A stretch of 64,000 nt of DNA from Arthrobacter sp. U41 (GTDB taxonomy: Bacteria > Actinomycetota > Actinomycetes > Actinomycetales > Micrococcaceae): NCBI RefSeq assembly GCF_001750145.1, contig NZ_CP015732.1, positions 372,001-436,000 of the forward strand, written 5' to 3'. The position numbers and the translations under genes were made by a program. Below the pieces are notes generated by a model. It made no database searches. It was not told the DNA's origin and saw only the letters and a list, made by a program, of their open reading frames with translations. Below, piece after piece: positions 3,460-54,610 of the stretch (positions within the stretch are counted from its first letter, which is position 1; every line of letters starts with the position of its first letter).

Positions 3460-3759
3460 ATGGCGGAACAGGTGTGGCGCGTCGGTCCGGACGTCGCCTT
3501 TGTCCAAAGTCCCGACGGCGGCCGCGTCGCAGTCCTGAACCTTGAGCAGGAGGTACCGGTCATCCTGGTCGGAACGGCCGCCTCCGTCTGGAACGGGCTG
3601 GACGGGATCAGGACCGAACCCGAGCTCATCGAAGAACTCGCCCGCGACTACGGTACCGATGCCTCCGCGATCCACGGAGACGTAATGGGCTTGATCCACG
3701 ATTTGAGCAGCAGCGGAACGATTGAACTGTCTCCCCGCGAGAGCGAAGCGAAACAGTGA
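3460..3759 (+). CDS. PqqD-like small peptide-binding protein
   Basis: A 99-residue protein. ATG 3460 is preceded at a good distance by GGCGGAGG, which decides this start over an earlier GTG at 3406. The pattern of a short beta segment (VAVLNLEQEVPVILVGTAASVW), then a helix-turn-helix (TEPELIEELARDYGTDASAI) and a last helix (VMGLIHDLSSSGTIE) is the PqqD/RRE-like winged-helix fold. In RiPP systems this fold binds a leader peptide, but PqqD-like proteins also occur beside polysaccharide genes with no known peptide. Its TGA overlaps the next ATG by one base (TGATG), so it is translationally coupled to the nucleotidyltransferase. No pqqA, pqqE or other PQQ gene is nearby. Confidence 0.75.
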   Translation: MAEQVWRVGPDVAFVQSPDGGRVAVLNLEQEVPVILVGTAASVWNGLDGIRTEPELIEELARDYGTDASAIHGDVMGLIHDLSSSGTIELSPRESEAKQ

Positions 3760-4655
3760 TGGAAGGCGCGCAATCCCTGCACCAGGATGAAGCCGTCCTC
3801 CTGGCCACGGCCCTCGTGGACTACGTGGCAGCATCAGCAGGCCTCCAGGTGTTATTCATCAAAGGTCCCGCCGCCACTATGATGGGCCTCCGTGAAAATC
3901 ATGTCTCCGCGGACGTGGATGTCCTGGTACGACCGGATCAGCTGGACAAGATGGTGGAGCTCCTGGGCGCCAGAGGCTGGCTCGAAAGGCAATCCGGCGT
4001 GTCAGTTGTCCGCCAGTACTTGCACTCCCGGACGCTGTACCACCCGCAATGGAACTGCGATATCGACGTGCACGACAGGTTCCCTGGGATGGAAGCCCCG
4101 CGAGAGAAAGCCTTTGAAACGCTCTGGCGCGACAGGCAGTACCTGGTCTTGGCGACCAGGACCATCCACGTTCCTTCCATACCGGCAGCCGTGATCTTCC
4201 AGGCGCTACACAGCCTCCGGGCTATGGACGATCCCCGCCATCAGCGAGAGTATTCAGGGCTGCTCCAGCGGGTTGATGCCACCCTGCACCAGGACATCGT
4301 TGATCTCAGCGCGGAGCTCGAGTCGACAGCGGCGCTGAAACCGTTCCTGGACGACCTGGGCATGGCAGATCTGCCGGTACGGCAGGGAACCGTCAGCGAG
4401 GAGTGGCGCCACCGCACTTCTGTACACGGCACCGGGACGGCCTACCTGGTCGCGCTCATGGAAAGTCCGTGGCGGGCCAAACCGCGGGTCCTCGCCCGCG
4501 CAATCTTCCCGTCGCGGCTGAGCCTTCGGCACGATGACCTCTATCTTGACGACTCCGTTACCGGGATTGTCAGGGCCTACGTTTCGCGGTGGGGCCGCGG
4601 AATAGCTAGCCTTCCATCAGCAGCCCGGAGAATCAGGGCTACACGCCGCGGGTAG
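3759..4655 (+). CDS. Nucleotidyltransferase family protein (NTP_transf_5 type)
   Basis: A 298-residue protein. The start is ATG 3759, sharing one base with the stop of the PqqD-like gene; a GTG at 3756 is possible. It shows the pattern of uncharacterised nucleotidyltransferases of the NTP_transf_5 group: LFIKGPAATMM near residue 33, then the metal-binding D-x-D motif in SADVDVLVRPDQLDKMV, an ARGW turn, and WNCDIDVHDRFPG with a second acidic pair. These proteins often sit beside PqqD-like and HprK-like genes in cell-surface loci. The substrate is unknown. It most likely acts together with the 3460 protein. An HprK-PqqD fusion lies at 50681-51871 on the other side of the polysaccharide locus. 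Confidence 0.75.
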   Translation: MEGAQSLHQDEAVLLATALVDYVAASAGLQVLFIKGPAATMMGLRENHVSADVDVLVRPDQLDKMVELLGARGWLERQSGVSVVRQYLHSRTLYHPQWNCDIDVHDRFPGMEAPREKAFETLWRDRQYLVLATRTIHVPSIPAAVIFQALHSLRAMDDPRHQREYSGLLQRVDATLHQDIVDLSAELESTAALKPFLDDLGMADLPVRQGTVSEEWRHRTSVHGTGTAYLVALMESPWRAKPRVLARAIFPSRLSLRHDDLYLDDSVTGIVRAYVSRWGRGIASLPSAARRIRATRRG

Positions 4656-24502: not shown

Positions 24503-24614
24503 CAGTTCCCCTGCGCGAAAGAAGTGGTAGGAAACCGCGGCGAGAAATGCGGTGTCCTCGGGGATGACTGGCGCCGAGAAACATGTGGTCTACCCGTATC
24601 CCGTTCGAATAATG

Positions 24615-27427: not shown

Positions 27428-27452
27428 CTGCCTTCTTGAATTATCCTGATGT

Positions 27453-27527
27453 CCGGATTATGCCGATGTCTGCCTGAACCCGCAGCTCAGGGCCGGGAAG
27501 GTGCCGGAAATGTTCGGCATAATCCGG
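27453..27527. repeat. 14-base perfect inverted repeat upstream of a recombinase remnant
   Basis: CCGGATTATGCCGA at 27453-27466 is repeated inverted as TCGGCATAATCCGG at 27514-27527, separated by 47 bases and placed about 50 bases before a tyrosine-recombinase start. Paired sites in front of tandem recombinase genes are a feature of RIT-type elements, so this may be the crossover or terminal site of such an element. That link is inferred. Confidence 0.55.
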
Positions 27528-27576
27528 CGACTGTCTGATACTTGTCCTCCCGTCTTCTCTCGGAAGGACAAGGATC

Positions 27577-27759
27577 ATGAGCGATCCTGCCAAGGTACGT
27601 GTCCGCGGCCCGCTGGCCTCACTGTTTCCAGGGTTCCGCGTCAGGCTGGCTGCGCTGGGCTATTCGCCGGGACCAGGTCATCTGCGAGCACGCCCGACGG
27701 CAGGGCCGGAAAGGCCAGTATTCCACCGATGTCGCGCATGTGTGTTTCGTCAAGTTTAA
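27577..27759 (+). pseudogene. Tyrosine recombinase N-terminal remnant
   Basis: ATG 27577 follows GGAAGGACAAGG. The first 30 residues (MSDPAKVRVRGPLASLFPGF, RVRLAALGYSPG) look like the start of a phage-integrase-type recombinase of the kind found in threes in RIT elements. The text then stops resembling a recombinase, and a TAG ends the frame just before the left end of IS21 at 27760. The catalytic domain is missing. A second frame reading DQVICEHARRQGRKGQYSTD follows the break and is not recognised. Confidence 0.5.
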
Positions 27760-27824
27760 GTAGGCCGTTTCAGCGCTAAGAATTAGGCCACGTCGGCTCT
27801 TTTCTGGTCCATTTCAGCGGTTGG

Positions 27825-28556: not shown

Positions 28557-30031
28557 GCTATTTCTCCTGTGGTGGTGTTCAGGGTGGTGAAGGTGTCATA
28601 GACGCTCAGGTCCACGTTCGTTGCCTCCGGTTCGGTGCCATCAGCCAGACGGCGGGCCAGCATGCCCAGCATGGCCATGTCCGGTGCATCCCCGCGCTGG
28701 ATCAGGGTGTCGGCAGCGGCCACCGCGGCATCGAATCCCGCCACCGATGAGGCAGCATCCACCGAGTTGAGCAGCCGGCGCCGATCCGTGGCCGTGGCCC
28801 GGTCCAACCAGTCACGCACCGGGTCCGTCACCAGGGCCCGCAGCGGCGAATGGGACCACGCCCCGGGCTTCGTCACCAGCAACGGCACCAGGGAAGCAGG
28901 GTCAAAGACCGTCTCGGCCTGCTTGCCGAAGACGCGCGGGAACGTGCGGACAGGTTCGGAATGCTCATCAAGGATCTGCACCACGTCGTGTCCCAACCCC
29001 ACCGTGAGCATTCGCCCGTGGAAAGCGGGCCCGGCGGCGTACGTGTTCCCGTCAATGAGCAGGTTCCCGGTCTTGTCGGCCTTGCGCGATTCGTAGCGCA
29101 CGGCATCGAAACCGATCCCCGGCAGGTCTATGGACGCCGCAACGTCCTGGGCGAACAGCTCACCCAGGGGCAGGCCCTTGCGGTAGTGCACGGTGGTGGC
29201 CAACGCGTCGCAGCGCGCCATGAGGTCCTTGTTCAGCCCCTCCAGGGTGGCGGCCTCCGGCTCGGGGACCATGAAGTTCCGGCGCAGGAACCCCACCGCG
29301 TTCTCCACGTTGCCCTTCTCATGGCCCGAGTACGGATTGCAATAGCGTGACTCGGACCTGTAGTGGAGTTTGAAGGCGCCAAACAGCTTCGTCTCGGTCA
29401 CCCGGGTTCCCACCCGATTTCCGATGCCCGTGGCATTATCAAAGACCATGTGCCGCGGCGCAGCCCGAATGTGCTCAAACACCCTCCGCAGCCCGTGGGC
29501 CACGCATTCGGCGGTCTCGCCCCGATACGCCTGCACGAAGCGCATGTTCGAGAACGGGAAGGTCACCACCAGGATATGCAGGACCTGCCGGATCCCGGCA
29601 ACGATGGCCTCGGCCTGACCGAAGTCGACCTGCACGGTGCCGGCAGGCCAGACCAGTTCGGTAAACCCCTCACCGGGCTGCCGGTGGGCGGCCAACCATT
29701 TCTTCACGTACCGCTGGACCGGTGAATAGGTGGCGGTAAAACCATGCTCGTCAACGAGCCGGTCGAAGATCCGCTTCGCCGTATGCCGCTGCTTGCGGTT
29801 CCGGCGCTGATCCTCGATGAGCCACCGCTCAATGATGTGCTCGAACCCGGTCAGCACCGAGGCCCCCGGCCTGGCCAGCGGTGCCCGCGGCGCCGGGGAG
29901 AAGTCCTCCTGCTCGGCGTACTTGGCCGCCGAGGTCCGGCTCACTCCAAGCCTTCGGGCGATCTGACGCACCGGGACTCCCTGGGAGTCGAGTCTTCTGA
30001 TATTTTCTTGAACGGACATGGGTACCGTCAT
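28553..30031 (-). CDS. istA: IS21 transposase IstA
   Basis: A 492-residue transposase. ATG 30031 follows GGAAAGTGAG; a longer frame to 30121 crosses non-coding text. N-terminal HTH: ENIRRLDSQGVPVRQIARRL. The DDE core includes TVQVDFGQAEAIVAGIR (Asp), HMVFDNATGIGNRVG (Asp) and SGHEKGNVENAVGFLRRNF (Glu). The C-terminal beta domain is present and there is no internal stop. Confidence 0.93.
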   Translation of the reverse strand: MTVPMSVQENIRRLDSQGVPVRQIARRLGVSRTSAAKYAEQEDFSPAPRAPLARPGASVLTGFEHIIERWLIEDQRRNRKQRHTAKRIFDRLVDEHGFTATYSPVQRYVKKWLAAHRQPGEGFTELVWPAGTVQVDFGQAEAIVAGIRQVLHILVVTFPFSNMRFVQAYRGETAECVAHGLRRVFEHIRAAPRHMVFDNATGIGNRVGTRVTETKLFGAFKLHYRSESRYCNPYSGHEKGNVENAVGFLRRNFMVPEPEAATLEGLNKDLMARCDALATTVHYRKGLPLGELFAQDVAASIDLPGIGFDAVRYESRKADKTGNLLIDGNTYAAGPAFHGRMLTVGLGHDVVQILDEHSEPVRTFPRVFGKQAETVFDPASLVPLLVTKPGAWSHSPLRALVTDPVRDWLDRATATDRRRLLNSVDAASSVAGFDAAVAAADTLIQRGDAPDMAMLGMLARRLADGTEPEATNVDLSVYDTFTTLNTTTGEIA

Positions 30032-30299
30032 CTCACTTTCCAGCCCTTCCGGCGCATACGCTTCGCAATGGCAGCACCGTAAGGAACCTATCTGGGGGTG
30101 GCGGGCCCATGTCCCCAACACTCTGGGAAAGGCCCCCGACCACCCGGGTGATCTCTAACTTCAGGCAAGCCCCCGAAACCTGATTCCGGGAAGAAAAAAC
30201 TGGCCTAATTCTTACCGCTCTTTTGGCCTGAAACGAGCCACCAACATGGCTCAAATTCCTGGCTGAAACGGCCTACAGATAGTCGATCACACACAGCAT

Positions 30300-30733
30300 G
30301 CCCCGACCCGGCACCGGGGTATCGACGGGCTGTGGTCCAAGCGGTGGTTCACGGACCGCGCCCGGGGCTTCGGGCCAGCCACCGAGGCGGTCATCGCCGG
30401 GATCATCGACCGACACGCTGTGGAGGCCCAAGGCTATCTGGACTGCCAGAACATTCTGGAGTCCCTGGGCAAGCGGAACAAGGCCCGCCTGGAGGCCGCC
30501 TGCCAGGTCCTGCTCGACACCGGTCAGGGCCCGGGAACCTACAGCACGATCAAGCGGATCATGGCCACCATCGACTCCGACACCAAGAAGCCCAGAACGG
30601 TCACACCGGCGGCGGCCACCCGCAAACCCGCCGCCGGCGCCGACCCCGGCGCCGGCCTCGGGGCCGCGGGGCCGCGGTGCACGTGCGCTCGGCCGAGCAC
30701 TACCGGCGCGGCGGCCAGGGAGGCGAGGGCTGA
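30300..30733 (+). pseudogene. IstA C-terminal fragment of a second IS21
   Basis: Opposite in direction to the complete IS21. It reads GIDGLWSKRWFTDRARGF, then AVIAGIIDRHAVEAQGYLDC and STIKRIMATIDSDTK, the C-terminal part of another IstA type. Near 30650-30680 the frame shifts: the expected ending VHVRSAEHYRRGGQGGEG is in another frame and closes with TGA 30731-30733, overlapping the istB ATG. The first three quarters of istA are missing, lost at the junction with the complete IS21. Confidence 0.8.
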
Positions 30734-31500
30734 TGTTCACCAGCGAGGACCATGAGAAATTCCGGGCCCTGCGCATCGCGCACCTGGCCGTGCGATTCGA
30801 GGAACTGATCACCGACGAGGCCAATGACGAGCTCACTCCCGAGCAGATCTTCCTCACCGCCGTGGACGACGCCCTCGAACAGCGCCGGGCCCACCGGATC
30901 GACAAGCTCATCCGGGCCGCCAGGTTCCCCATCACGCAGGCCTCGGTCGCCGAGATCAACTACCAGGAGGGACGCGGGATCACCCCGGTGCGGATGAAGC
31001 GCTATGCCGCCCACCAATGGCGCCAGGACCCCACGAACCTGCTGGTCATCTCACCGACCGGTGGTGGCAAGACCTACCTGGCCTGCGCGATCGGGATCGC
31101 CGCCTGCCAGAGCGGACACACCGTCGCCTACACCCGGATGGACGACCTCGCCCGCCGGTTGGTCATCGCCCGCGGTGACGGCATCGGCCACCAGAAGCTG
31201 CTCAACGAGCTCTCGGGCGTGGACCTGCTGGTCATCGATGACGTCCTCACCGTGGGCATCGACCCCGAAGCGGCCAACGACCTCTTTGCGGTCCTGGCCA
31301 ACCGGGAACACCGCCTGCCCACGCTCATCGCCTCGCAGTCCGGTCCGGCCTACTGGGTCGAGGCCCTACCGGACCGGGTGGTCGCGGACTCGATCGTGAA
31401 CCGGCTGGCCAACAACGCCCGCCAGCTCAACCTCGGCGACGTGGACATGCGACGGCACCGCGACGACAGGGCCCGGGCTCAACCGGACCACTGGGAATAG
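30733..31500 (+). CDS. istB: IstB-type ATPase of a second IS21
   Basis: A 255-residue AAA+ protein with Walker A ISPTGGGKTYLACAIGIAA, Walker B GVDLLVIDDVLTVGIDP and ASQSGPAYWVEALPDRVVAD. It is intact but orphaned because its istA is a broken fragment. It differs clearly from the IstB at 27825, so this is a separate IS21 lineage. ATG 30733 overlaps the istA stop. Confidence 0.9.
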   Translation: MFTSEDHEKFRALRIAHLAVRFEELITDEANDELTPEQIFLTAVDDALEQRRAHRIDKLIRAARFPITQASVAEINYQEGRGITPVRMKRYAAHQWRQDPTNLLVISPTGGGKTYLACAIGIAACQSGHTVAYTRMDDLARRLVIARGDGIGHQKLLNELSGVDLLVIDDVLTVGIDPEAANDLFAVLANREHRLPTLIASQSGPAYWVEALPDRVVADSIVNRLANNARQLNLGDVDMRRHRDDRARAQPDHWE

Positions 31501-43362: not shown

Positions 43363-44142
43363 CTAGCCCTTGAAAACCGGCTTGCGCTTTTCCTGGAAAG
43401 CCCGGAAGCCCTCCGAGTAGTCCTCGGTCTTGCAGAGCCGGGCCTGCTCGGCGTTCTCCTCTTCCATGGACTCCCAGAGGCCGAGGCGCTGGTCCCGGAT
43501 GTGCGCCACGAGTTCCTTGCTGGCGGTGAATGCGCTGGTGGCACCGGTGGCAGCCTTGGCCACGATGGCGCGGGTGTTCTCCAGCAGCTCAGCCGCGGGC
43601 ATGGCCCGGCTGAACATCCCCTGGGCCACGGCGTCCGCGCCGGACATGAGCTCGGCGGTGTAGATCAGGTCCAGGGTCCGGTGCATGCCGAGGCGTTCGG
43701 TGAAGTACCAGTGGCCGCCCGAATCGAGGGTGGCGCCCAGATTGGCGAACGGTGAGCCGAATTTGGCGTTCTCCGCCACGTAGACCACGTCCGTGGCCAG
43801 CAGCAGACCCAGCCCCACGCCCAGGCAGGCGCCCTGCGCCGCCGCGAAGGTGGGGGCCGGGAACGCAGCCATCTTCTTCAGCAGCGGCTGCAGAAGCCCG
43901 CCCAGGTACGCCTGGACGTCATCCGTCTCCGGCGTCACGCCGGCGATGTCCCGGCCCGCGCAGAAAGCCCGGCCCTCTCCCCTGAGCAGCAGCGCCCGCA
44001 CTTCGCCCCGCGAGGCGGCGGCAGCGGCGTCGTCGTACGCCTGTGCTAAATCCCTGAGGGCCTGCCCGTCGAGCGAGTTTAGCTTGTGCGGGGCGTCAAG
44101 GACGATCTCGGCGATGCCGCCGGCGATGGAGAGGGAAATCAT
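43363..44142 (-). CDS. paaG: Enoyl-CoA hydratase/isomerase family protein (PaaG-like)
   Basis: A 259-residue crotonase. ATG 44142 follows CAGGAG; longer frames run into the paaE coding region. Oxyanion-hole segments: GEGRAFCAGRDIAG and AAQGACLGVGLGLLLATDVV. Where hydratases carry a catalytic glutamate this protein reads NLGATLDSGGHWYF, close to the PaaG pattern with Asp and GG-W. That favours ring-opening isomerase chemistry on epoxyphenylacetyl-CoA. It is placed 37 bases downstream of paaE on the same strand. Assignment to PaaG over PaaF is moderate. Confidence 0.7.
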   Translation of the reverse strand: MISLSIAGGIAEIVLDAPHKLNSLDGQALRDLAQAYDDAAAAASRGEVRALLLRGEGRAFCAGRDIAGVTPETDDVQAYLGGLLQPLLKKMAAFPAPTFAAAQGACLGVGLGLLLATDVVYVAENAKFGSPFANLGATLDSGGHWYFTERLGMHRTLDLIYTAELMSGADAVAQGMFSRAMPAAELLENTRAIVAKAATGATSAFTASKELVAHIRDQRLGLWESMEEENAEQARLCKTEDYSEGFRAFQEKRKPVFKG

Positions 44143-44179
44143 GGGGCTCCTGAGGTCGGGGCGGGAAGCGGGTGGGCTG

Positions 44180-45400
44180 CTAGACGTCGAAGTCGACGGT
44201 GACTTCCGGCGTCGTGGGGTGGGACTGGCAGGTGAGCACGTAGCCCTTATCCAGTTCGTCCTGCTCCAGCGCGTAGTTCTCATCCATGGTGACGGCACCG
44301 GTGACCACCTTGGCGCGGCAGGTTCCGCAGACGCCGCCGGCGCAGGCGAACGGCACGTCCGGGCGGACCCGCAGGGCCGCGTTGAGGATGGATTCGCGGG
44401 CGTGGGTGGGGCTGGCCACCTCGCCCTGGAGGCCGTCCAGCTTGAAGGTGATCTTGTAGGTTGCCTGGGACTCGTCCACAATCACGGGACGGCCGGCGTT
44501 GCCCTCGGGGCGGTCCGGCTTGCCGGTGGTGAAGAGTTCGAAGCGGATGTGGTCCGGGTTGACGCCGCGCTCGGCCAGGGTGTCCCGGCAGAGCTGGACG
44601 AGCTCGAAGGGCCCGCACAGGAACCACTCGTCGACGTCGTCGGCGTGGATCGCGGTCCCCAGCAGGGCCTGCAGTTTCTCCGCGTCGATCCGGCCGCTGA
44701 GCAGCGGGGCGATCCGTTGTTCGCGGGAGAGCACGTGGTGCAGGGCGAGCCGGGCCGGGTACTTGTCCTTCAGGTCGGCGAGCTCCTCGAGGAACATCAC
44801 GTCCATGGCGGCCTTGTTGGCGTAGACCAGGTCGAAGCGGGTTTCCGGGTGTGCCGCGAGCAGCGTGCGGGCAATCGCGATCACCGGGGTGATGCCGGAA
44901 CCGGCGGCAATCGCGACGAAGGAGCCCGGCTCCCCCGCCAGCTCCTCCGGATGGTTCATCGAGTTCATCAGGTTCTGCTCTTTGCCGTCGCGGCCGTGCT
45001 TGGACACGAACGCGCCCATCGGGCTCATGACGTCCAGGACGTCGCCGGCCTTGAGCTCGGCGTTCGCCCAGGTGGAGAACTGCCCGCCCAGGTCCTTCTT
45101 GATCGCGACCCGGATCTCGCTGCTGCCGTCCGCGAAGCTGCGCGGTTCGGCGCAGATCGAGTAGCTGCGCCGGATTTCCTTCGGCCCGCCGTTCTCATCC
45201 GGCAGCGTGGTGCGCAGGGCGACGTACTGGCCGGGGAGGTAATCGAACTGGCCGGCGAGCTCGGCCGGGACGCCGAAGGTGACCTCGATCGCGTCGTCGG
45301 TGAGCCGGCGGACCTCATCCACGGTCAACGGGTGGAAGGACGCGCGTCGGCGTCCGGTGGCTGCAGCCGTTTCAGCGGCGGTCTGGCGGACAACAGTCAT
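44180..45400 (-). CDS. paaE: Phenylacetyl-CoA epoxidase reductase subunit PaaE
   Basis: A 406-residue flavodoxin-reductase-type protein; ATG 45400 follows GGAACAGG. Order: FAD domain (YLPGQYVALRTTLPDE, RRSYSICAEP), NAD(P) domain (AAGSGITPVIAIARTLL), and a C-terminal plant-type 2Fe-2S ferredoxin (FACAGGVCGTCRAKVVTG with a fourth cysteine in LTCQSHP). It carries electrons from NADPH to the PaaAC diiron oxygenase. A 14-base gap separates it from paaD. Confidence 0.93.
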   Translation of the reverse strand: MTVVRQTAAETAAATGRRRASFHPLTVDEVRRLTDDAIEVTFGVPAELAGQFDYLPGQYVALRTTLPDENGGPKEIRRSYSICAEPRSFADGSSEIRVAIKKDLGGQFSTWANAELKAGDVLDVMSPMGAFVSKHGRDGKEQNLMNSMNHPEELAGEPGSFVAIAAGSGITPVIAIARTLLAAHPETRFDLVYANKAAMDVMFLEELADLKDKYPARLALHHVLSREQRIAPLLSGRIDAEKLQALLGTAIHADDVDEWFLCGPFELVQLCRDTLAERGVNPDHIRFELFTTGKPDRPEGNAGRPVIVDESQATYKITFKLDGLQGEVASPTHARESILNAALRVRPDVPFACAGGVCGTCRAKVVTGAVTMDENYALEQDELDKGYVLTCQSHPTTPEVTVDFDV

Positions 45401-45414
45401 GGGGCACCTGTTCC

Positions 45415-45939
45415 TTACAAAACTTTGAAGTAGTCGAACGGTTCCTTGCAGTCCTGGCAGACGTACAGCGCCTTGCAGGAGGTGGAACCGAAGCGGGTGA
45501 GTTCCTTGGTGTTCAACGATGAACACTGCGGGCATTTGACGGCGAGGGACAGCCGGACCGGCCCGGCGTGCCGCACGGCCGCCGAGTGGCCCGACGGCGG
45601 GGCGATGCCGTATTCCTGGAGCTTGGCCTTGCCTGACTCGGTCATCCAGTCCGTGGTCCACGCCGGGGAGAGCACCAGCTCAACCCGGACGTGGGGGTAG
45701 CCGGCATTGTGGAACGCCGTGGTGAGGTCGTCCCGGATGGCGTCCATCGCGGGGCAGCCGGAGTAGGTCGGCGTGATGGTGACCTGGACCGCGGGAACCT
45801 GCCCGCCGTCGTCGAACAACTGGACGTTCCGGAGAATCCCCAGGTCCGCGACCGTGAGGACGGGGATCTCCGGATCGCAGACCGTGGCCGCGATGTCCCA
45901 GGCCTTCTGCTCGGCCGTCTTGGTGTCCATCTCAGGCAT
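45415..45939 (-). CDS. paaD: Phenylacetate degradation protein PaaD (MIP18/DUF59 family)
   Basis: A 174-residue protein with the DUF59 N-terminus (VCDPEIPVLTVADLGILRNV, PTYSGCPAMDAIRDDL) and a C-terminal zinc-ribbon-like part with CPQCSSLNTKELTRFGSTSC and CQDCKEPFDYFKVL. PaaD is needed for maturation of the iron centres of the epoxidase. The paaC start is two bases upstream. Confidence 0.92.
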   Translation of the reverse strand: MPEMDTKTAEQKAWDIAATVCDPEIPVLTVADLGILRNVQLFDDGGQVPAVQVTITPTYSGCPAMDAIRDDLTTAFHNAGYPHVRVELVLSPAWTTDWMTESGKAKLQEYGIAPPSGHSAAVRHAGPVRLSLAVKCPQCSSLNTKELTRFGSTSCKALYVCQDCKEPFDYFKVL

Positions 45940-45941
45940 GA

Positions 45942-46883
45942 TTACCAGCTTGCTCCGGGGTACTCGCGGGCGAGCACCTGCATTTCGGCGAGGATGTAAC
46001 CGAGGTGCTCGGAGTGCAGTCCCTTGCGTCCGCCGCCGGGGGCGGGCTGGACCTTGGGGACGTCGAGTTCGGCCTCGGCGAGGACCTCGCCGGTAAGCCG
46101 GTCGAAATCGGCGCGCAGGCTGGACGGCTCGACGGCGGCACCGGCCGCGGCGAGGCGGGCGGTGAGTTCATCGTCGCGGAACAGCTCGTCCACGTAGGGC
46201 CAGACGACTTTGAAGCCGTGGATCATCTTCTCGCGGGACTCATCCGTGCCCTGGGCCAGGCGCAGCACCCACTGGGCGCTGTGGTCGCGGTGGTAATCCA
46301 CTTCCTTGACGGCCTTGGCGGCGATGCCGGCCAGGGTGGCGTCGGTGGACTCCACCAGGCGGCGGTACAGCTCGAACTGGTAGTAGCTGACGACGAACTG
46401 GCGGGCGATGGTGACGGCAAAGTCACCGTTCGGGATTTCGAAGATCTCCACGGAACGGAACTCGGGCTCGCGGCGGAAGTACGCGAGGTCATCCTCGCTC
46501 CGACCGTCGAGCCCGCCGGCGTAGCTGAGGAAGGACCGGGCGTGACCCAGCTGGTCCAGGGCGATGTTGCCGAGGGCGATGTCCTCCTCGAGCTCCGGGG
46601 CGCGGGAGATCCAGTGGCCAAGGCGCTGCGCGAGGATCAGCGCGTCATCGCCCAGGCGCAGGGCGAACTCGGCGACGTCCTCGCTCGGATTGGCGGTGCC
46701 GCGGCTGACGGCCAGGGCGATGTCCTCCGGGCGGAGGGCGTTGCCGGGGGTGATGCGGGTGGCGCTGGCCGTGGCCTCGCCGCTGCCGCTGGCTGCCTTG
46801 ACGCCGACGGAGACGTCCCCGTGGCCGGAGGCTTCTTCTTCTGCGGGGGCCGCTGCGGCCGCGGTTTCAGGTGAGGTGCTCAC
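45942..46883 (-). CDS. paaC: Phenylacetyl-CoA epoxidase structural subunit PaaC
   Basis: A 313-residue ferritin-like protein with GTG start at 46883 overlapping the paaB stop (GTGA). The first 60 residues are an Ala/Ser-rich extension not needed for the fold. Then EFALRLGDDALILAQRLGHW, ALDQLGHARSFLSYAG and KEVDYHRDHSAQWVLRL follow the family. PaaC pairs with PaaA; it has lost a functional diiron site in the characterised enzyme. Confidence 0.92.
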   Translation of the reverse strand: MSTSPETAAAAAPAEEEASGHGDVSVGVKAASGSGEATASATRITPGNALRPEDIALAVSRGTANPSEDVAEFALRLGDDALILAQRLGHWISRAPELEEDIALGNIALDQLGHARSFLSYAGGLDGRSEDDLAYFRREPEFRSVEIFEIPNGDFAVTIARQFVVSYYQFELYRRLVESTDATLAGIAAKAVKEVDYHRDHSAQWVLRLAQGTDESREKMIHGFKVVWPYVDELFRDDELTARLAAAGAAVEPSSLRADFDRLTGEVLAEAELDVPKVQPAPGGGRKGLHSEHLGYILAEMQVLAREYPGASW

Positions 46884-47185
46884 AGGTGCTTCACGCCCTC
46901 GCTCTTGGTGTAGTACGTCGCGTGCCGGTAGTCCTTGCCCTGGGGCGACTCGAAGAACGAGCCCTTGGAGTCCGGATCGCTGGAGGCGATGGCGTCAGCC
47001 GGGACAACCCAGATGGAGACACCCTCGTTGCGGCGGGTGTACAGGTCACGGGCGTTGCGCAGGGCCATGGCGGCGTCCGGCGCGTGCAGGGAGCCGGCGT
47101 GGACGTGGGAGAGGCCGCGGCTGGAGCGGACGAAGACTTCCCAGATGGGCCAGACGTTACCTGCGTGCGGTTCGGGGGTGGTCAT
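46880..47185 (-). CDS. paaB: Phenylacetyl-CoA epoxidase subunit PaaB
   Basis: A 101-residue small subunit. [40 protein letters not shown] and [13 protein letters not shown] are typical PaaB text. It bridges PaaAC heterodimers. It overlaps paaA and paaC by four bases each. Confidence 0.93.
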
Positions 47186-48213
47186 GCTGCGGATTCCTTT
47201 TCTGCTTGCTTGCGGCTCTGCTTTTCCGCGTAGGCGGCGGCGGCTTCGCGGACCCAGGTGCCGTTGTTGTGTGCTTCGCGGCGCCGTTCCAGGCGCTGGG
47301 CGTTGCAGGGGCCGCGGCCGGCGAGGACTTCGTGGAATTCATCCCAGTCCAGCGGGCCGTGCTCCCATTTCTTGGTCTCTTCGTTGAAACGGATGTCCTT
47401 GTCCGGGAGGGTGAGCTCCAGGACCTTGACCTGCTCCATCATCATGCCGACGAAGCGGTTGCGCAGTTCGTCGTTGCTGAAGCGCTTGATGTTCCAGGCC
47501 ATGGACTGCTTGGAGTTGGGCGAGTCGTCATCCGGCGGGCCGAACATCATCAGGGCCGGGGCGTACCAGCGGTTGACCGCTTCCTGGGCCATCTGCTTCT
47601 GCTCGGGGGTGCCGTGGGAGAGTTCCAGCAGGATCTCGAAGCCCTGGCGCTGGTGGAAGGATTCTTCCTTGCAGACGCGGACCATGGCGCGGCCGTAGGG
47701 GCCGAAGGAGGCGCGGCAGAGCGGCACCTGGTTGGCGATCGCGGCGCCGTCGACCATCCAGCCGATGGCACCCATGTCCGCCCAGGTCCGTGCCGGGTAG
47801 TTGAAGATGGAGGAGTACTTGGCCTTGCCGTCCATCAGGTCCTGGTTCATCTGGTCCCGCGGCTGGCCGAGGGTTTCGGCGGCGGAGTACAGGTACAGGC
47901 CGTGGCCGGCCTCGTCCTGGACCTTGGCCATCAGGATGGCCTTGCGCTTGAGGCTGGGGGCGCGGGAGATCCAGTTGGCTTCCGGCTGCATGCCGATGAT
48001 CTCCGAGTGCGCGTGCTGTGAGATCTGGCGCAGCAGGGTCTTGCGGTATGCCGGGGGCATCCAGTCGCGGGGTTCGATCCGCGAGTCTTCCGCCATGACT
48101 TTGTCGAAGTATGCCTGGCCTTCAGCGTCACGCCGGGCCGCATCTTCGAGGCTCTGTTCGTGCCGTGCCGCTGTTGGCTCTCCGGGCACTGACTGCAGGG
48201 TCTGCGCTGCCAT
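47182..48213 (-). CDS. paaA: Phenylacetyl-CoA epoxidase catalytic subunit PaaA
   Basis: A 343-residue diiron oxygenase subunit; ATG 48213 follows TAGGAGC. It carries the ferritin-like four-helix text [40 protein letters not shown] (Glu/His ligands) and [20 protein letters not shown] (second ligand set). It oxidises the ring of phenylacetyl-CoA to the 1,2-epoxide. First gene of paaABCDE. Confidence 0.95.
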
Positions 48214-48345: not shown

Positions 48346-49062
48346 GTGAAGATCGGCACCGGCAAGCAGCTCCCCCTCTGGGCCTCCGTGGCCCGGAACA
48401 TGCTCATTGCCCTGGTGGCCGTGTCCCTGGTCCAGGGGTTCCTGGTGAAGGCCTACCGGATCCCGTCCGGATCCATGGAGCCGACGCTGCAGGGTTCTTC
48501 GGACGGCGGCGACAGAATCCTGGTGAACCGGCTCGCCTACGCCGGGTCAGAGCCGCGCACCGGCGACATCGTGGTGTTCACCCGGCCGGAGAGCTGGCAG
48601 GCGGAATCTGGGGTGCCACGCAGCGGCGGGGTGGCCGGGCTGGCCCGTTCCTTCGGCGACGTGACCGGGATCGGGCCCTCCAACGAGCAGTTCCTGGTGA
48701 AGCGGGTGGTTGCGAGCGGCGGCCAAACCATCAGCTGCTGCGGGGACGACGGCAAACTGCGCATCGACGGCCTGCCGCTGGACGAACCCTATGTTTTTGA
48801 GGACCTGCCGTTTGCCGCTGGCAGCCTGGACTGCCAGGGCAGCCCCCAGTCGCTGCGGTGTGTTCCCTCGTTCACCGTTCCTGAAGGTGAGCTGGTGGTG
48901 CTGGGCGACCATCGGTCCAACTCGGTGGATTCCGCCATCGCCTGCCGGAGCCTGACTGGTGAGGCCGGCGGGGACTGCGTCAGGACCGTTGGCGCCACGG
49001 CCGTCGTCGGCCAGGTGGCGGGCAGGTTCTGGCCGCTGAACCGTTTTGGTGGAGTGGGCTGA
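48346..49062 (+). CDS. lepB: Signal peptidase I
   Basis: A 238-residue protein starting at GTG 48346. One N-terminal membrane anchor (LIALVAVSLVQGFLVKAY), then YRIPSGSMEPTL with catalytic Ser43, DRILVNRLAY, VVFTRP, QFLVKRVVASGGQ with the general-base Lys119, and GDHRSNSVDS. It cleaves signal peptides outside the membrane. It has unusual inserts between the second and third motifs (residues 82-113). It is convergent with the BY-kinase gene and shares the terminator. Confidence 0.92.
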   Translation: MKIGTGKQLPLWASVARNMLIALVAVSLVQGFLVKAYRIPSGSMEPTLQGSSDGGDRILVNRLAYAGSEPRTGDIVVFTRPESWQAESGVPRSGGVAGLARSFGDVTGIGPSNEQFLVKRVVASGGQTISCCGDDGKLRIDGLPLDEPYVFEDLPFAAGSLDCQGSPQSLRCVPSFTVPEGELVVLGDHRSNSVDSAIACRSLTGEAGGDCVRTVGATAVVGQVAGRFWPLNRFGGVG

Positions 49063-49128: not shown

Positions 49129-50595
49129 CTAGCGCACGGGCTGCGACTCCGGCTCGCGGGACTGATATGCGGTGTAGTACCGGTACGAATCCGCCCCGGT
49201 GGTGGGCACCCGGTTGAGGATCGTGCCAAGTACGTTGCCGTTGACCCGCCCCAGGTTGCCGAGCGACTTCCCAAGCTCCTCATCGGTGGTCTTCCCGGAC
49301 CTGATAACAACAATTGCTCCGTCGGCAATGCGGGTGAGGACGGCGGCGTCCGTGACGGGAAGCAGCGGCGGGGCGTCGACGAGCACAATGGCGTCCTGCG
49401 CGAGCGTTCTGAGCAGAGTCTTCATGGCCTGCGAGCCCAGCAGCTCGCTGGGGTTCGGCGGGATCCGGCCGGAGCCGAGTACCCGCAGGTTGGGCATCGC
49501 GCTCCATTCCTGCAGCACGTCCTCCAGCTCGGCGTGGCCGCTCAGGACGTCGGTGACCCCGACCCCGGGGACCAGGTTGAAAACATCTACCAACGTGGGG
49601 CGGCGCAGATCGCCGTCGACCACCACCACGTTCTCGCCCGCGGCGGCCATGGTGACCGCCAGGTTGGCCGTCACCGTCGACTTGCCCTCGGCCGGAACGG
49701 AACTGGTCACCACGATGATCCGCGGGGGATTGTCGACGTCGACATACTGAAGGTTTGTCCGGAGCTCCCGCAGGGCCTCGGTGATCGCATGCGATCCTTC
49801 GCCTGCGGCGACCGGGCTGAACCCGTCGTCCAGTACGGTGCTTTTGCCATCCAGGCGGTGGTCCACCGGGAGCGTGCCCAGCACGGGCACGCCGAAGCGG
49901 CGCTCGATCGCCGTGGCGCTGCGGAGCCGGCGGTCCAGTCGGTGGCGAATGAGTGCATAAGCGAGCCCGAGAGCCAGGCCGGCCAAAGCTCCGATGGCCA
50001 GCGACAACTTCACATTGGGGGAAGTCGGGGCCGTCGGCAGCGTGGCTTCGCCCAGCGGAACCACACGAATTACCGGAACAGGAATGACGTCCGAGCCTTC
50101 CACCGCGGGGATGCTTTCCAGCTCCTTGACCTGCTCGGCCAGGCCCATGACCCAAGCATCCGCGACCTTTCGGGCCATTTCTGGGTTAGTGGACGTTGCG
50201 GTCACGGCAAGCTGGGCGCTTTCCTTCGGCACGGCCACGGTGACGGAGCCCAGCAGCGCGTCGGGCGATGTGGTGAGGCCCAGCGAGGTGACGACGCGCT
50301 CGGCCACGAGCCTGGACTTGGCCACAGACTCGTACTTGGCGGCCTTGGTCTGGGCCAGATTCTCGCTCATGAGCGAAAGGCTGAGGTTGTCCGAGCCGCC
50401 GGCCACCACGATCCCGCTGGACTGTGCGGCGTAAATCTTCGGCTGCAGGAGGGTCCAGCAGAAGGCGAGCACGGTCAGCGCAAGGGTGAACGCCAGAATG
50501 CCCTTCCAGCGGGCCCGCGCGATGCGCAGGTAGTCCTCCAGCGCCAGTCCCGCCGAAGTTTGACCGCTGTTGTCGGCCGTTTCAAAACCAGTCAC
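49129..50595 (-). CDS. Polysaccharide co-polymerase fused to BY-type tyrosine kinase, second copy
   Basis: A 488-residue protein. GTG 50595 follows GGGGGAGAGG. Wzz-like N-terminus (EDYLRIARARWKGILAF) with a first membrane helix, an outside domain, a second helix (LSLAIGALAGLALGLAYALI), then the kinase domain: Walker A TSSVPAEGKSTVTANLAVTM, Walker A' VVVDGDLRRPTLVDVFN and Walker B AIVLVDAPPLLPVTDAAVLT. Tyrosines near the C-terminus (DSYRYYTAY) are probable autophosphorylation sites. It is the same architecture as the protein at 19977 but clearly diverged. Next door lie an HprK-like kinase and a tyrosine phosphatase. Confidence 0.9.
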   Translation of the reverse strand: MTGFETADNSGQTSAGLALEDYLRIARARWKGILAFTLALTVLAFCWTLLQPKIYAAQSSGIVVAGGSDNLSLSLMSENLAQTKAAKYESVAKSRLVAERVVTSLGLTTSPDALLGSVTVAVPKESAQLAVTATSTNPEMARKVADAWVMGLAEQVKELESIPAVEGSDVIPVPVIRVVPLGEATLPTAPTSPNVKLSLAIGALAGLALGLAYALIRHRLDRRLRSATAIERRFGVPVLGTLPVDHRLDGKSTVLDDGFSPVAAGEGSHAITEALRELRTNLQYVDVDNPPRIIVVTSSVPAEGKSTVTANLAVTMAAAGENVVVVDGDLRRPTLVDVFNLVPGVGVTDVLSGHAELEDVLQEWSAMPNLRVLGSGRIPPNPSELLGSQAMKTLLRTLAQDAIVLVDAPPLLPVTDAAVLTRIADGAIVVIRSGKTTDEELGKSLGNLGRVNGNVLGTILNRVPTTGADSYRYYTAYQSREPESQPVR

Positions 50596-50680
50596 GCTAA
50601 GGTCCTCTCCCCCGTGCCTGGCCCCAACGACCCACACGAAAAGTTACTGTACGGTACGGTGACCGCGTTTGATGTGCACG

Positions 50681-51871
50681 TTAACCGCGCTGGAGCATTC
50701 CCTGCCGGACGAGTCCGTCCACGGCTGCATCGAGCAGGGCCTCGTAGCCTTCCGGCAGTCCATGCTCGGCTTCGATCCGGCTCGCCAGAGTTTGCATCGA
50801 GACTGGCCGCAGGGCGGATTTCCAGATGATGGGTCCTATTCCACTGAGCTGGGTGAGTTCGGCTTCCGTCAGGACCAGCAGGTCCCCGCCGATCTCCACC
50901 GCGTCAACTGCATGGGTCCTTTGCACCCAGCCCGCGGGGATTGGTTCTTGTGGTTTTTCTCCGGCGGGGTCTGCAGCTTGTTCCACTTCCGGCCCCAACT
51001 CCCCCAGTGCGGGTGACCATGCCTGGGCCTCCGACGGGTTGGCCGGCACCGTAAGAAAAAGCGGCGCGAGGCTGTCCTTCAGGTCAGCAGCTTCGGAATA
51101 GCTGACCCGGAACACTCCGCCCACGCTGTCAATCAGCCGGCAGAGCGATTGAAGCGGCTGGGCCACCGCAGCCTGGGAGGACGTGTCCGGAATGAGCGCC
51201 AGCACAGCCTCCACCAGGGGGACCGGTCCGATGACGGGCAGCTGGTGGTCCGCGCCGGCAACCCTGTCGAGCAGTGCGATGGCCGCGATACGGGGATTGT
51301 CCGAGGCGACCTGCAGGCCCAGCTCGTCCGGTCCAACCTGCAGTTTGGCGGCACCGGGCGTTGCCTGCTTAACGGACAACGGCTTGGGGTACGGCAGGAC
51401 AGTCCCGTCCGCCCGGATGGCGACGGTTTCGTCAGTTATGTAGCCGAAGGTCCGGGCGAGCTGCGACGAGGCCGTCGTCTTCCCGGTGCCGGACTTTGCG
51501 ACCAGGGCAATGACGGCTCCCCCAGGATCCGCGACTCCGCAGGCGTGCAGCATGGTCAGATCGCCGGCACGCTCGAGGATGGCGGCGATAGTGACTTCAG
51601 AGGTCACGGCCTCGGCCAATCCCTCGAAGGTGTCCGAGCCGAGGTGTCTCGCGCCGGCGTTCGGCAGCTTGGATTCAAAGTGGAGGGAGGCAGTGAAGGG
51701 TAAGCCTGAGGTGCCGGGCTCCACTTCCGGCACGAAGGGGCGCGGATCCCCCAGGCATCGACTCCAGGCCTCAGCCATCGAATGCCTCTGTCCGGCCGTG
51801 ACGGCTGATCCCCAAACAACGGTGAAGCTTGTGCCCAACACGTCAAGGTTCAAGTCGCCCGGTGCCCTCAA
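50681..51871 (-). CDS. HprK-like kinase domain fused to a PqqD-like domain
   Basis: A protein of up to 396 residues; the start is uncertain (TTG 51871 or later GTG). N-terminal region about 1-110 without clear motif. Then an HPr-kinase-like P-loop core: ALVAKSGTGKTTASSQLART (Walker A near residues 124-133), GYITDETVAIRADG with an acidic pair, and AIALLDRV. A Pro/Glu-rich linker (about 295-313) leads to a C-terminal 80-residue PqqD-like domain: VDAVEIGGDLLVLTEAELTQ, GIGPIIWKSALR, LASRIEAEHGLPEGYEALLD and VDGLVRQGMLQ. Separate HprK-like and PqqD-like genes are known together in HPr-rel-A type cassettes; here they are one chain. Phosphate acceptor unknown. Confidence 0.75.
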   Translation of the reverse strand: MRAPGDLNLDVLGTSFTVVWGSAVTAGQRHSMAEAWSRCLGDPRPFVPEVEPGTSGLPFTASLHFESKLPNAGARHLGSDTFEGLAEAVTSEVTIAAILERAGDLTMLHACGVADPGGAVIALVAKSGTGKTTASSQLARTFGYITDETVAIRADGTVLPYPKPLSVKQATPGAAKLQVGPDELGLQVASDNPRIAAIALLDRVAGADHQLPVIGPVPLVEAVLALIPDTSSQAAVAQPLQSLCRLIDSVGGVFRVSYSEAADLKDSLAPLFLTVPANPSEAQAWSPALGELGPEVEQAADPAGEKPQEPIPAGWVQRTHAVDAVEIGGDLLVLTEAELTQLSGIGPIIWKSALRPVSMQTLASRIEAEHGLPEGYEALLDAAVDGLVRQGMLQRG

Positions 51872-52050
51872 TCAGTCTCACCAATCCGGCAACGCCTCAG
51901 TAAATTGAATCCTTCTACCAGCCGGCGCCCGCACGGCCAGAACCCTCCCGGCATGGCGCCCCCAACATGATCCCGGCATTTTGCTTCTGGCCATTAGATC
52001 ACTTGTGGAATGCCGCCCGGACCATAATTTGGTGGCGGGAAGGAGTGTTA
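51872..52050. other. Intergenic region between HprK-like and secreted-protein genes
   Basis: About 180 bases between two minus-strand genes. No strong hairpin, no promoter boxes that I can defend. It may carry the promoter of the HprK-PqqD gene. Confidence 0.35.
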
Positions 52051-52641
52051 CTAGGTCAGTGTGATTTCAGAGCTGGCTGCCGGCGCGGCGGGGTGGGTGA
52101 GCGTTACCGTGATGGCGTATTTGCCGCCCGTAGCCAATTTCGCTCCGAGGTACTTGAACCCCCCGAGGTTAAAGATCTGGGATGCGCCGCCGGCAAGGCC
52201 GATCGAGTAAAAGATGGGGGCCGTGAAAACGTTGCCCGAGAAACTTCCCGCAGCCCCGGCTGTCGGCGTTGTCGTTTCAAACCCAACCCCCGTTGCGCCA
52301 GTGGTAACAGGCTGGATGGTGACAAAGCCCTGAATCGTGCCGGTGGGAACAGTTGAGGTGTTCTTGATTGTGAATTCCGCCGGGGCCAACCCACTCCTGT
52401 TCTGACCGGGCACCGGGTTCTCAACCCGAGTGAACGTGGCGCCAGCCGGAGCCTTAGCAAAGGACGCTGCAGCCGTAGCGGTCGTCGTAGACGCCGCAGC
52501 CGCAGCGGTCGTCGTAGACGCCGCAGCCGCAGGCGCTGCAATGGCTGCCGCGATGACGGGCACGCTCCACGCGGCGGTCTTTACAACGGTCCGGCGGTCG
52601 AAACTGGCTTTCGGTGCGGCCAGGCTCTTAATCTCCGACAT
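52051..52641 (-). CDS. Small secreted protein with Tat-like signal and Ala/Thr-rich stalk
   Basis: A 196-residue protein; ATG 52641 follows GGGGTAGAAG. Residues 15-18 are DRRT inside FDRRTVVKTAAWSVPVIAAA, a twin-arginine followed by a hydrophobic segment, so a Tat-type or ordinary signal with probable cleavage at APAAA-AS. Next comes an Ala/Thr repeat (ASTTTAAAAASTTTATAAAS) then a beta-rich domain of about 125 residues (GLAPAEFTIKNTSTVPTGTI, SNVFTAP-like strands, YAITVTLTHPAAP). No wall anchor. I do not recognise the family. Its place beside the HprK-PqqD gene and lepB makes it a candidate client of that system. Confidence 0.65.
   Translation of the reverse strand: MSEIKSLAAPKASFDRRTVVKTAAWSVPVIAAAIAAPAAAASTTTAAAAASTTTATAAASFAKAPAGATFTRVENPVPGQNRSGLAPAEFTIKNTSTVPTGTIQGFVTIQPVTTGATGVGFETTTPTAGAAGSFSGNVFTAPIFYSIGLAGGASQIFNLGGFKYLGAKLATGGKYAITVTLTHPAAPAASSEITLT
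52481..52533 (+). repeat. 27-base tandem repeat in the secreted-protein gene
   Basis: The unit beginning GTCGTCGTAGACGCCGCAG at 52481 is repeated at 52508 almost perfectly, preceded by a decayed third copy near 52463. It encodes the Ala/Thr-rich stalk. Such in-frame repeats can change number by slippage, which would vary the stalk length by 9 residues per unit. Confidence 0.75.
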
Positions 52642-52842
52642 CTTCTACCCCAAGTTCTAATGCGGCGGAGAAAACCCCTGTGCGGGCGCGCTCCTGCCGA
52701 GCGTTTCGGCAGCCTTTGCCGAGTGTACGCAGGAAAGCATGATTCTTCAATATCAAGCTTCTTTATTATCAAGAACAACAGAACGCGGCCCTATCTCCTT
52801 CCAACCGTCACGGCGGTGAAGGCGCGGCTAGACTCGGAAACC

Positions 52843-53475
52843 ATGCCGCAGGCACGAGTCCCGCTACTGGAAGTTGGAAAAACCTTGGAAGCGCTTCACC
52901 CCGTTCGGATCCTGACGGTCTGCACCGGCAACATCTGCCGCTCGCCGGTCGCCGAGCGCCTCCTGCAGGCCGGCCTGGACCAGGTTCAACCCGGCGCGTT
53001 TGTGGTGAGCAGCGCCGGAACCCGGGCCATGGTGGGCGATCCGATCCAGCCGCTCTCCGCGGAGATCATCAGGACGTACGGCGGAACGCCGGAGGGCTTT
53101 GCGGCCCGACAGCTGACGCCCAGGATCCTCAGGGAGTCCGATTTGGTGCTGGCGATGACCGCCAAACACCGCGGCGCCGTGATGCAGATGGACGCCTCCT
53201 TGCTGAAGCGGACCTTCACTATCCGCGAGTTCGCCCGGATGCTGGAGGTCCTTGGCCAGCGCGACGCGCCGTCCGCCGCCGTCGACCTTCCGGCGTTTTG
53301 GCGGGGACTCCCCGCCCGGGCGGCCTCCGCGCGGCACCTCGCGCTGGCCGCGGAAGCCGCCGACAACGATGTGGTGGATCCCTACCGGCGCGGGCCGGAG
53401 CTGTACAACCAGATGGAGGACGAGCTCGCCCCGGCCATCCTCGGCATTCTGCGGTTCGCCCGCGAGCACGGCTGA
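52843..53475 (+). CDS. Low-molecular-weight protein tyrosine phosphatase
   Basis: A 210-residue protein starting at ATG 52843. The P-loop VCTGNICRSPVAERLL (Cys27, Arg33) lies near the N-terminus and the general-acid DP pair at 179-180 (VVDPYRRGPELYNQM). Classic family length is about 150; an insert of some 40 residues at about 131-172 and an N-terminal extension of 20 account for the rest. In polysaccharide loci these enzymes remove phosphate from BY-kinases; two such kinases are in the window. Divergent from the secreted-protein gene. Confidence 0.88.
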   Translation: MPQARVPLLEVGKTLEALHPVRILTVCTGNICRSPVAERLLQAGLDQVQPGAFVVSSAGTRAMVGDPIQPLSAEIIRTYGGTPEGFAARQLTPRILRESDLVLAMTAKHRGAVMQMDASLLKRTFTIREFARMLEVLGQRDAPSAAVDLPAFWRGLPARAASARHLALAAEAADNDVVDPYRRGPELYNQMEDELAPAILGILRFAREHG

Positions 53476-53533: not shown

Positions 53534-54610
53534 ATGGGGATATCTCCGGAACCAGCAGCAGCCGCAGGCTCAGCCGCGGCACCGGGCGGAATGAACCGCC
53601 GTCGCACCATTGCCATCGCCGTCATCGCCGGGCTGGTGGTACTCGCCGTCGTCGTGGCAGCATTCCTGCTGAACCGGCCGCGCACCGAAACCGCGGCCCC
53701 GGTGGAAACCTCCGCCCCGGCGCCGGAGACCACACCGCCCGTAACGCCGGAGCCCACGCCCACCCCGACCCCGGATCCGCCGCCCACGGCACTGAACATC
53801 CTGCTGATCGGCAGCGACAGCCGCGTGAACGATCGGGCGGTCGCGGCCTCCGGCGGGACCTCGGACCAGCGCGGGGACGCCCTCGTCTTCGTCCATCTCC
53901 CGGCGGACCGCCAGAGTGTCTATGGCATCTCCCTCATGCGTGACCTGTGGGTGGACATCCCCGGCTACGGCGGGGGAAAGGTCAACGCCGGGCTCGAACT
54001 GGGCGGGGTGCCGCTTATGACGCAGACCGTGGAGGCCCTGCTCGGCCAGCACATCGACCACACCGTGATGGCGGACTTCCAGGGCTTCGCCGCCATGACC
54101 GATGCCCTCGGCGGCGTCGACGTCGACATCAAGCGGCCCTTCCAGGGCACGATCGACGACTTCGTGAATTTTCCGCCGGGTGTGAACAGGCTCAACGGCT
54201 CGCAGGCCCTGGCCTTTGTCCGGGAGCGCAAAGCGTTCGCGGACGGCGACTACCAGCGGGTCCGGAACCAGCAGACCTTTATCAAGGCTCTGATGGCCAA
54301 GATGGCGGCTGAGGGCGGACTGTCGGACCGCAACACCGTGAAGCAGCTGGTGGCGACCGTCCTCCCGCACGTCACGGTGGACCCCGGGCTCACGGTGGAG
54401 ACGCTGGAACGGCTCGCCTTCAGCCTGCGCAGCACGGCCCCCGGCAGCGGGGTTTTCTTTACACTCCCCACTGCCGGCGTCGGGACCACCACCAGCGGCC
54501 AGTCGGTGATCTGGCAGAACCCCGCCGCCACCGCGGCCGTGTCCGCCGCGCTGTCTTCCGGGACTTTGGCCGACTACGTCGCCGCCAACGGCCTGCAGAA
54601 CGGCAACTGA
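53534..54610 (+). CDS. LytR-CpsA-Psr (LCP) family ligase
   Basis: A 358-residue protein. Short cytoplasmic head, membrane helix at about 28-50 (TIAIAVIAGLVVLAVVVAAF), Pro/Thr linker, and an LCP domain from about residue 94: NILLIGSDSRVNDR, RGDALVFVHLPADRQSVYGI, SLMRDLWVDIPGYG, KVNAGLELGGVPLM, GGVDVDI and QALAFVRERKAFADGDYQRV with its RxR...D.RxxRQ-like segment. LCP enzymes transfer undecaprenyl-linked polymers to peptidoglycan. Here it could attach the locus polysaccharide. It begins 58 bases after the phosphatase gene. Confidence 0.92.
   Translation: MGISPEPAAAAGSAAAPGGMNRRRTIAIAVIAGLVVLAVVVAAFLLNRPRTETAAPVETSAPAPETTPPVTPEPTPTPTPDPPPTALNILLIGSDSRVNDRAVAASGGTSDQRGDALVFVHLPADRQSVYGISLMRDLWVDIPGYGGGKVNAGLELGGVPLMTQTVEALLGQHIDHTVMADFQGFAAMTDALGGVDVDIKRPFQGTIDDFVNFPPGVNRLNGSQALAFVRERKAFADGDYQRVRNQQTFIKALMAKMAAEGGLSDRNTVKQLVATVLPHVTVDPGLTVETLERLAFSLRSTAPGSGVFFTLPTAGVGTTTSGQSVIWQNPAATAAVSAALSSGTLADYVAANGLQNGN

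Follow-up and report, generated by a model that had tools for sequence, protein, structure and literature searches.

The stretch of DNA analysed here (the window) comprises 64,000 nucleotides of Arthrobacter sp. U41 (NZ_CP015732.1, positions 372,001 to 436,000) and encodes, side by side, a secreted protein and an HprK-like kinase joined to a PqqD-type RiPP recognition element (RRE). What does such a kinase act on? In the open-licence PMC papers we found no description of clients of RRE-associated HprK-like kinases beyond the lasso and LPP (linear polyphosphorylated peptide) clusters. From sequence we propose a class of clients with a named tag and a named acceptor serine: exported proteins that would be captured by an RRE, phosphorylated by the kinase, extended by an NTP_transf_5 nucleotidyltransferase and then exported. 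Such a leader-guided modification system, drawn partly by analogy with known systems, is in our judgement a reasonably probable reading of the locus.

The kinase gene has the following parts:

50681..51871, minus strand: HprK-like kinase fused to a PqqD-type RRE, 396 aa, intact open reading frame, model pLDDT 90.6
51047..51628, minus strand: kinase core (residues 82-275), HprK/PEPCK fold, with H109, P-loop K131 and D147/E148
50684..50929, minus strand: fused RRE (residues 315-396), identified by a profile match to LppB/TbiB1/PbaB1 and by secondary structure

The gene encodes an intact HprK/PEPCK-fold kinase joined to a PqqD-type RRE, as the original prediction had it; fold, conserved residues and RRE profile agree. 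Scanning the fusion against Pfam and NCBIfam (hmmscan) yielded weak P-loop matches, weak chance-like matches and a sub-cut-off match to TIGR04352 (HprK-related kinase A), and therefore a family profile and a structural model were needed. The TIGR04352 score of 26 bits, against a curated cut-off of 200, reduces the suggested 'HPr-rel-A' type to a distant resemblance. The AlphaFold2 model is confident (pLDDT 90.6, pTM 0.88). Foldseek likened the kinase core to HprK/P and PEPCK, with no E-value below 1e-3, so the link to these families is distant. The best 50 VIA structure rows are of PEPCK type and span residues 1-341 at most, and for this reason are not informative on the RRE part.

The C-terminal part was assigned with a family profile searched against solved sequences. 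It matches LppB, the RRE of LPP, best (9x8z, E 5e-7), followed by TbiB1 and PbaB1; the structures matched (9x8z, 5v1u, 9x90) are all RREs, with LppB as the closest solved relative. The sequence from the window alone stayed below the cut-off. Family profile and secondary structure of the model together support a winged-helix RRE, as had been predicted for this domain.

Among 96 family members H109, K131 and D147/E148 are kept in 99-100%, and D323, G344 and W350 of the RRE part each in about 96% or more, which argues that the fusion is no local accident. The H109/K131/D147/E148 set, read without an alignment, looks like the counterpart of the His-Lys-Asp-Asp motif that is common to lasso kinases according to the accessible part of PMC9266682, with Glu replacing the last Asp. 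The gene is single-copy in its own genome. When the 7997 candidates sharing most words were scored, 499 homologues were found at E<=1e-3; among the best 120 of these 499 the named ones belong to Arthrobacter and Pseudarthrobacter. The fusion is common across Arthrobacter-like and other Micrococcales genomes.

The neighbouring gene, on the same strand, encodes the proposed client:

52051..52641, minus strand: tagged secreted protein, 196 aa, open reading frame, model pLDDT 66.7 (mature part mostly about 80)
52516..52641, minus strand: leader/signal peptide (residues 1-42) with R16 R17, W25, P28, P37 and S42
52516..52518, minus strand: codon of S42, the proposed acceptor serine

The analysis confirmed that this gene, adjoining that of the kinase-RRE protein, encodes a secreted beta-rich protein; its model resembled beta-sandwich and other beta folds only weakly. 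The leader has the pattern RR...WxxPxI...S, in which the Ser follows the Trp by 17 residues, and the layout of a Tat substrate, with a hydrophobic stretch after the twin arginine. All 62 kinase-linked partners show the twin arginine and, behind it, W, P (+3), P (+12) and S (+17). The signal peptide is the best conserved part of the protein. Its residues 16-42 are 94.8% identical among six close relatives, as opposed to 24.9% for the mature part; for 27 relatives the values are 84% and 29%. Signal peptides are as a rule more variable than the proteins they carry, and the reversal of this rule is the pattern of a RiPP leader.

For a broader view 182 profile matches in 200 loci were reduced to 112 non-redundant leaders. 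Three without [WYF]xxP were excluded, leaving 109 with WxxP. Of these leaders 107 have the twin arginine and 102 a Ser at +17, a number that rises to 108 if +18 is also accepted; this conservation is somewhat inflated because the collecting profile was built from leaders with these residues. Thr at +17 occurred in none of the 109, and positions +19 to +23 hold 9% Ser and 15% Thr. In a hand-made and noisy control of 20 RR signals, several of which look membrane-protein-like, W..P was absent and Ser stood at the same place in seven, a clear gap even with so poor a control. A cleavage site of A-x-A-S type could be enough to explain a preference for Ser at the leader junction. We also considered a C-terminal acceptor Ser of the paeninodin kind and dropped it because the C-termini of the partners vary.

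The tag is carried by diverse secreted proteins. Among 26 diverse examples only R, R, W, P, P and S are invariant, the mean column identity is 13%, and just one protein has a Pfam match (Big_1). One order-level genome contains 12 tag matches, and at loci L251-L254 four to seven tagged secreted proteins follow the kinase, which points to one kinase serving many clients.

Further genes of the cassette and its surroundings in the window are:

3460..3759, plus strand: discrete PqqD/RRE, 99 aa, likely leader binder (PF05402, E 2e-9)
3759..4655, plus strand: NTP_transf_5 nucleotidyltransferase, 298 aa, its start codon overlapping the RRE stop (PF14907, E 1.6e-10)
48346..49062, plus strand: signal peptidase I of bacterial type, candidate leader peptidase (TIGR02227, 93 bits, cut-off 47)
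49129..50637, minus strand: BY-kinase with Wzz-type domain, directly downstream of the kinase-RRE gene (TIGR01007, E 2e-49)
52660..53475, plus strand: LMW protein phosphatase, divergent neighbour (PF01451, E 2e-21)
53534..54610, plus strand: LCP glycopolymer transferase, neighbour (PF03816, E 1e-39)

Of 100 loci retrieved, 97 had a called kinase. In 33 of the 97 a single strand carries, in this order, secreted protein, discrete PqqD/RRE, kinase-RRE, BY-kinase and NTP_transf_5, which bears out the earlier idea that kinase, PqqD/RRE and NTP_transf_5 form one cassette. A tagged partner lies on the same strand within 1 kb of the kinase in 62 of the 97 loci (52 upstream, 10 downstream); the 35 loci in which none was found within this distance on the same strand are mostly from other genera. 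Other families combine the parts in different fusions: at L251-L254 an LMW phosphatase domain is fused ahead of the HprK-like kinase (e.g. L253 7105-8568), and at L255 7870-9261 and L256 7715-9088 a single chain contains the kinase and two RREs, of which the second matches PF05402. These different fusions argue that the parts work together. One locus, L137, has tandem kinase-RRE genes (8337-9560 and 11710-12990), each with an RRE and a BY-kinase, and one NTP_transf_5 gene at the end.

In the window the discrete RRE and the kinase-RRE gene are 46 kb apart. At all seven loci of the window's clade RRE and NTP_transf_5 were absent within 7 kb of the kinase. NTP_transf_5 is encoded elsewhere in all seven genomes, with 72-80% identity in the six others, and lies about 40-46 kb from the kinase in the three clade genomes that have both on one contig. 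The region between the RRE/NTP_transf_5 pair and the kinase (about 11694-31500) contains identical-looking copies at 24659-25699 and 26380-27420, and is rich in what we take, from sequence reading, to be transposase-like frames. The cassette adjoins a minus-strand operon (43363-48213), presumably for phenylacetate degradation (paa). The apparent paa operon also adjoins the cassette in close-clade loci.

Eighty loci were named, including Arthrobacter, Pseudarthrobacter, Rathayibacter, Subtercola, Agromyces, Microbacterium, Nocardioides, Flexivirga and others. In the stretches examined, some of which end at contig ends, the tagged protein was present in 52, BY-kinase in 59, NTP_transf_5 in 38, phosphatase in 34, discrete RRE in 32 and signal peptidase in 24, and no tagged protein was seen in 28. 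That BY-kinase is near the kinase more often than the tagged protein could mean that the true target of the kinase is something else (BY-kinase, a glycosyltransferase or HPr) and that the secreted protein is a fellow member of a surface-polysaccharide operon. The HprK fold and the adjoining phosphatase and LCP genes are in keeping with this, yet the part that co-occurs with the kinase is the tag rather than a particular mature domain, a genome may have up to 12 tag matches, and WxxP is an RRE motif in a cassette that has RREs. A second, distant HprK-like family of the genus also speaks against another client (L351 7281-8465; L352 7573-8673; L353 7772-8875 and 16468-17568; L354 7594-8832): at its four loci no match to tag, RRE, BY-kinase or NTP_transf_5 was found within about 7 kb. 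Proteins of this second family have about 370-410 aa, and a glycosyltransferase-like gene lies directly downstream. We regard another client as unlikely. Linkage and co-occurrence with the kinase support the secreted protein as the likeliest client of the cassette, one of the two clients named in the original prediction.

The prediction further held that the fused PqqD part recruits the client. The cassette does contain RREs, and the leader's WxxP is the motif bound by lasso and LPP RREs, but the pocket of the fused domain is mostly degenerate. PbaB1 holds the leader Trp through Q79 and E75, and its cleft is divided by F83 (PMC13381572, available in part). Q79/F83 of PbaB1 were equated by spacing with D70/F74 of LppB. 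In the fused RREs the F74 position is Ala in 63 of 96 and the D70 position Ala or Leu in 63 of 96; the fused RRE of the window likewise has Ala at the F74 position and lacks the canonical leader pocket. Of 51 discrete RREs, 50 have Phe at the F74 position and 44 have Gln at the D70 position. This Gln/Phe pocket is that of PbaB1, which binds Trp, and makes them look built for the local Trp leaders. A point against this is the window's own discrete RRE, in which Leu, Asp and Thr occupy pocket positions that are mostly Phe, Gln and Leu in this group. Because the pocket residues are mostly missing from the fused RREs and kept in the discrete ones, the leader binder is probably the discrete RRE, and the fused RRE may be a docking or secondary site. 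Thus the recruiting role would belong to an RRE of the cassette, probably not to the fused one.

The steps of the proposed modification would then be as follows. The N-terminal signal peptide of the secreted protein would double as recognition leader, and its WxxPxI would be captured by an RRE, most likely that encoded at 3460-3759. The captured protein would be brought to the HprK-like kinase, with the fused second RRE as docking module, and the kinase would (poly)phosphorylate the Ser at the leader/mature junction (S42). The phosphate might next be extended by NTP_transf_5 with a nucleotidyl or sugar group. All of this could happen before export, since the Tat pathway transports proteins that are already folded and modified; the protein would leave through Tat, and signal peptidase I would remove the leader, placing a modified N-terminus on a surface beta-domain. 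The weakest step is the last: a surface glycan as end point, suggested by the BY-kinase/Wzz, LCP and sugar genes nearby. The surface-phosphorylation module of the original prediction is a possible inference.

That the RRE motif sits inside a signal peptide and that there are two RREs per system would also fit a different scheme, in which the RREs are signal-peptide chaperones, like those of Tat proofreading, that stay bound until the client folds, the HprK-like protein being an ATP-driven release switch that modifies nothing. This leaves no role for NTP_transf_5 or for the Ser at +17/+18 (108 of 109 leaders), and H109, K131 and D147 of the kinase are as well conserved as stated above. We consider the chaperone scheme quite improbable.

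Profiles of tag and kinase were run on 297 order-level genomes: 53 had both, five the tag only, five the kinase only and 234 neither (Fisher p 1e-46, in a test that ignores phylogeny). Here the tag cut-off was E<=1e-3, and matches between 1e-3 and 0.01 (six genomes) were left out; at a cut-off of 0.01 the numbers are 53, 11, 5 and 228. The genomes with one of the two alone count against the proposed system, as do the kinase loci without a tagged neighbour. Among 206 genus genomes 54 had both, one the secreted protein only, six the kinase only and 145 neither, the test again ignoring phylogeny. The secreted protein thus co-occurs with the kinase in other genomes, as the original prediction demanded. 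These cut-offs were set after the lists were seen. For the genus table a kinase match had to reach E 1e-20, which removed 46 of 106 genomes. Most of the weaker matches cover only about residues 82-168, and four such loci were inspected; one genome, G292, has a piece of 73 residues.

The single genus genome with the tag only is 68% complete. In three of the six kinase-only genomes (G200, G228, G379) the profile reveals a tagged protein beside the kinase (L180, L183, L174). The other three (G282, G291, G389) are without the other partners too. At L161, L167 and L169 no tagged protein, RRE, BY-kinase or NTP_transf_5 was found within about 7 kb of the kinase, and the genomes of these loci have no NTP_transf_5 match, an absence that we read as co-loss. 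That the N-terminus is an ordinary Tat signal, coupled to the kinase only by shared ancestry and linkage, is very hard to credit: although it is laid out like a Tat/Sec signal peptide and the Fisher tests ignore phylogeny, the tag (E<=1e-3) occurs in only five of 239 order-level genomes without kinase, the tag-kinase pairs cover eight families, this tagged protein is the only one in its own genome (the next match, E 1.5, lies inside a regulator-like frame), the leader is far better conserved than the mature part, and the small, noisy control had no W..P and Ser in seven of 20.

Given that kinase and tag are found together in many related bacteria, the pair may serve to mark a dedicated group of proteins shortly before they are exported. 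As a more tentative extension, possible but short of an even chance in our estimate, the Micrococcales would possess a tag-and-modify system in which any RR-WxxPxI-S protein is caught in the cytoplasm by an RRE, and the Ser that is to become its N-terminus is first (poly)phosphorylated and then glycosylated or nucleotidylated, by one kinase and NTP_transf_5. After export through Tat this group would anchor the protein to a surface polysaccharide, in the assembly of which the co-encoded BY-kinase would take part. If this is true, exported proteins are subject to RiPP-type leader-guided chemistry in which the signal peptide serves as leader, and the system may reveal a way of attaching proteins to surface glycans in these bacteria.

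Several known systems come close to the present one. HPr kinase/phosphorylase and the TIGR04352 kinases are like the present kinase in P-loop kinase fold and core residues; here an RRE is fused, and HPr is unlikely as client. Precursors with Sec signal peptides that are associated with RREs (DUF2063/DUF2282; PMC12710340) share with our proteins a signal-peptide precursor served by an RRE, but in the part of that paper available no specific RRE motif is mapped, unlike here, and its main text does not contain the words 'kinase' and 'HPr'.

Phosphorylated lasso peptides (paeninodin PadeK, ThcoK; pseudomycoidin PsmK/PsmN; PMC9266682) have a kinase for a precursor Ser, an RRE (B1) and a nucleotidyltransferase, as here, and the paeninodins also have a WxxP leader. 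According to the accessible text, lasso kinases act on the precursor, and PsmN, the lasso nucleotidyltransferase, adds a hexose to phospho-Ser. The client proposed here is instead a protein, with the proposed Ser at the leader junction and not at the C-terminus. The B2 leader peptidase (PF13471) had no match in the window's genome (G000), and the same search was positive in two of 14 control genomes; because B2 is absent from the genome, we did not file the system as lasso.

In the open-licence PMC papers nothing closer than LPP was found for the kinase/PqqD pair, the families or the motif. In the lpp cluster of Paenibacillus alginolyticus, as described in the accessible part of Popov et al. 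2026 (PMC13381572), the RRE LppB binds a YxxP leader, the HprK-like LppK phosphorylates core Ser3 one to four times (but modifies neither S3T nor S3Y), and the SpI-like LppS cuts the leader with the help of LppB; deletion of lppN, which encodes the NTP transferase, caused no detected change of product, a point against the mechanism proposed here. LPP shares with our system the discrete RRE, the HprK-like kinase, the NTP transferase, a nearby signal-peptidase gene, the polysaccharide-gene setting and precursors with a conserved N-terminus and a variable C-terminus. The [Y/W]xxP motif is common to both, with Ser 18 residues after the aromatic residue in LPP and 17 here. This match of motif and spacing, and the specificity of the LPP kinase for Ser over Thr and Tyr, support the proposed mechanism.

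The leader consensus of LPP, YxxPxVLxHQxIxFETxxS, is not that found here, where Trp replaces Tyr and HQxIxFET is missing. The peptidase of LPP is an archaeal-type (SipW-like) SpI, whereas the neighbour here scores as bacterial type (TIGR02227 93 bits; TIGR02228 22 bits, below its cut-off of 52). Because consensus and peptidase type, both tested, differ, the system was not filed as LPP. LPPs are called restricted to Bacillota in the part of that paper available; the present system is in Actinomycetota, its leader is laid out as a twin-arginine signal peptide, its clients would be proteins of about 150-500 aa with a signal peptide, the kinase carries a second, fused RRE, BY-kinase is a constant neighbour, and no MsbA-like transporter was noticed in the gene lists. 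We therefore regard it as an actinobacterial system without earlier description in the open-licence PMC literature, in which kinase modification of the LPP/lasso kind appears to be aimed at exported proteins.
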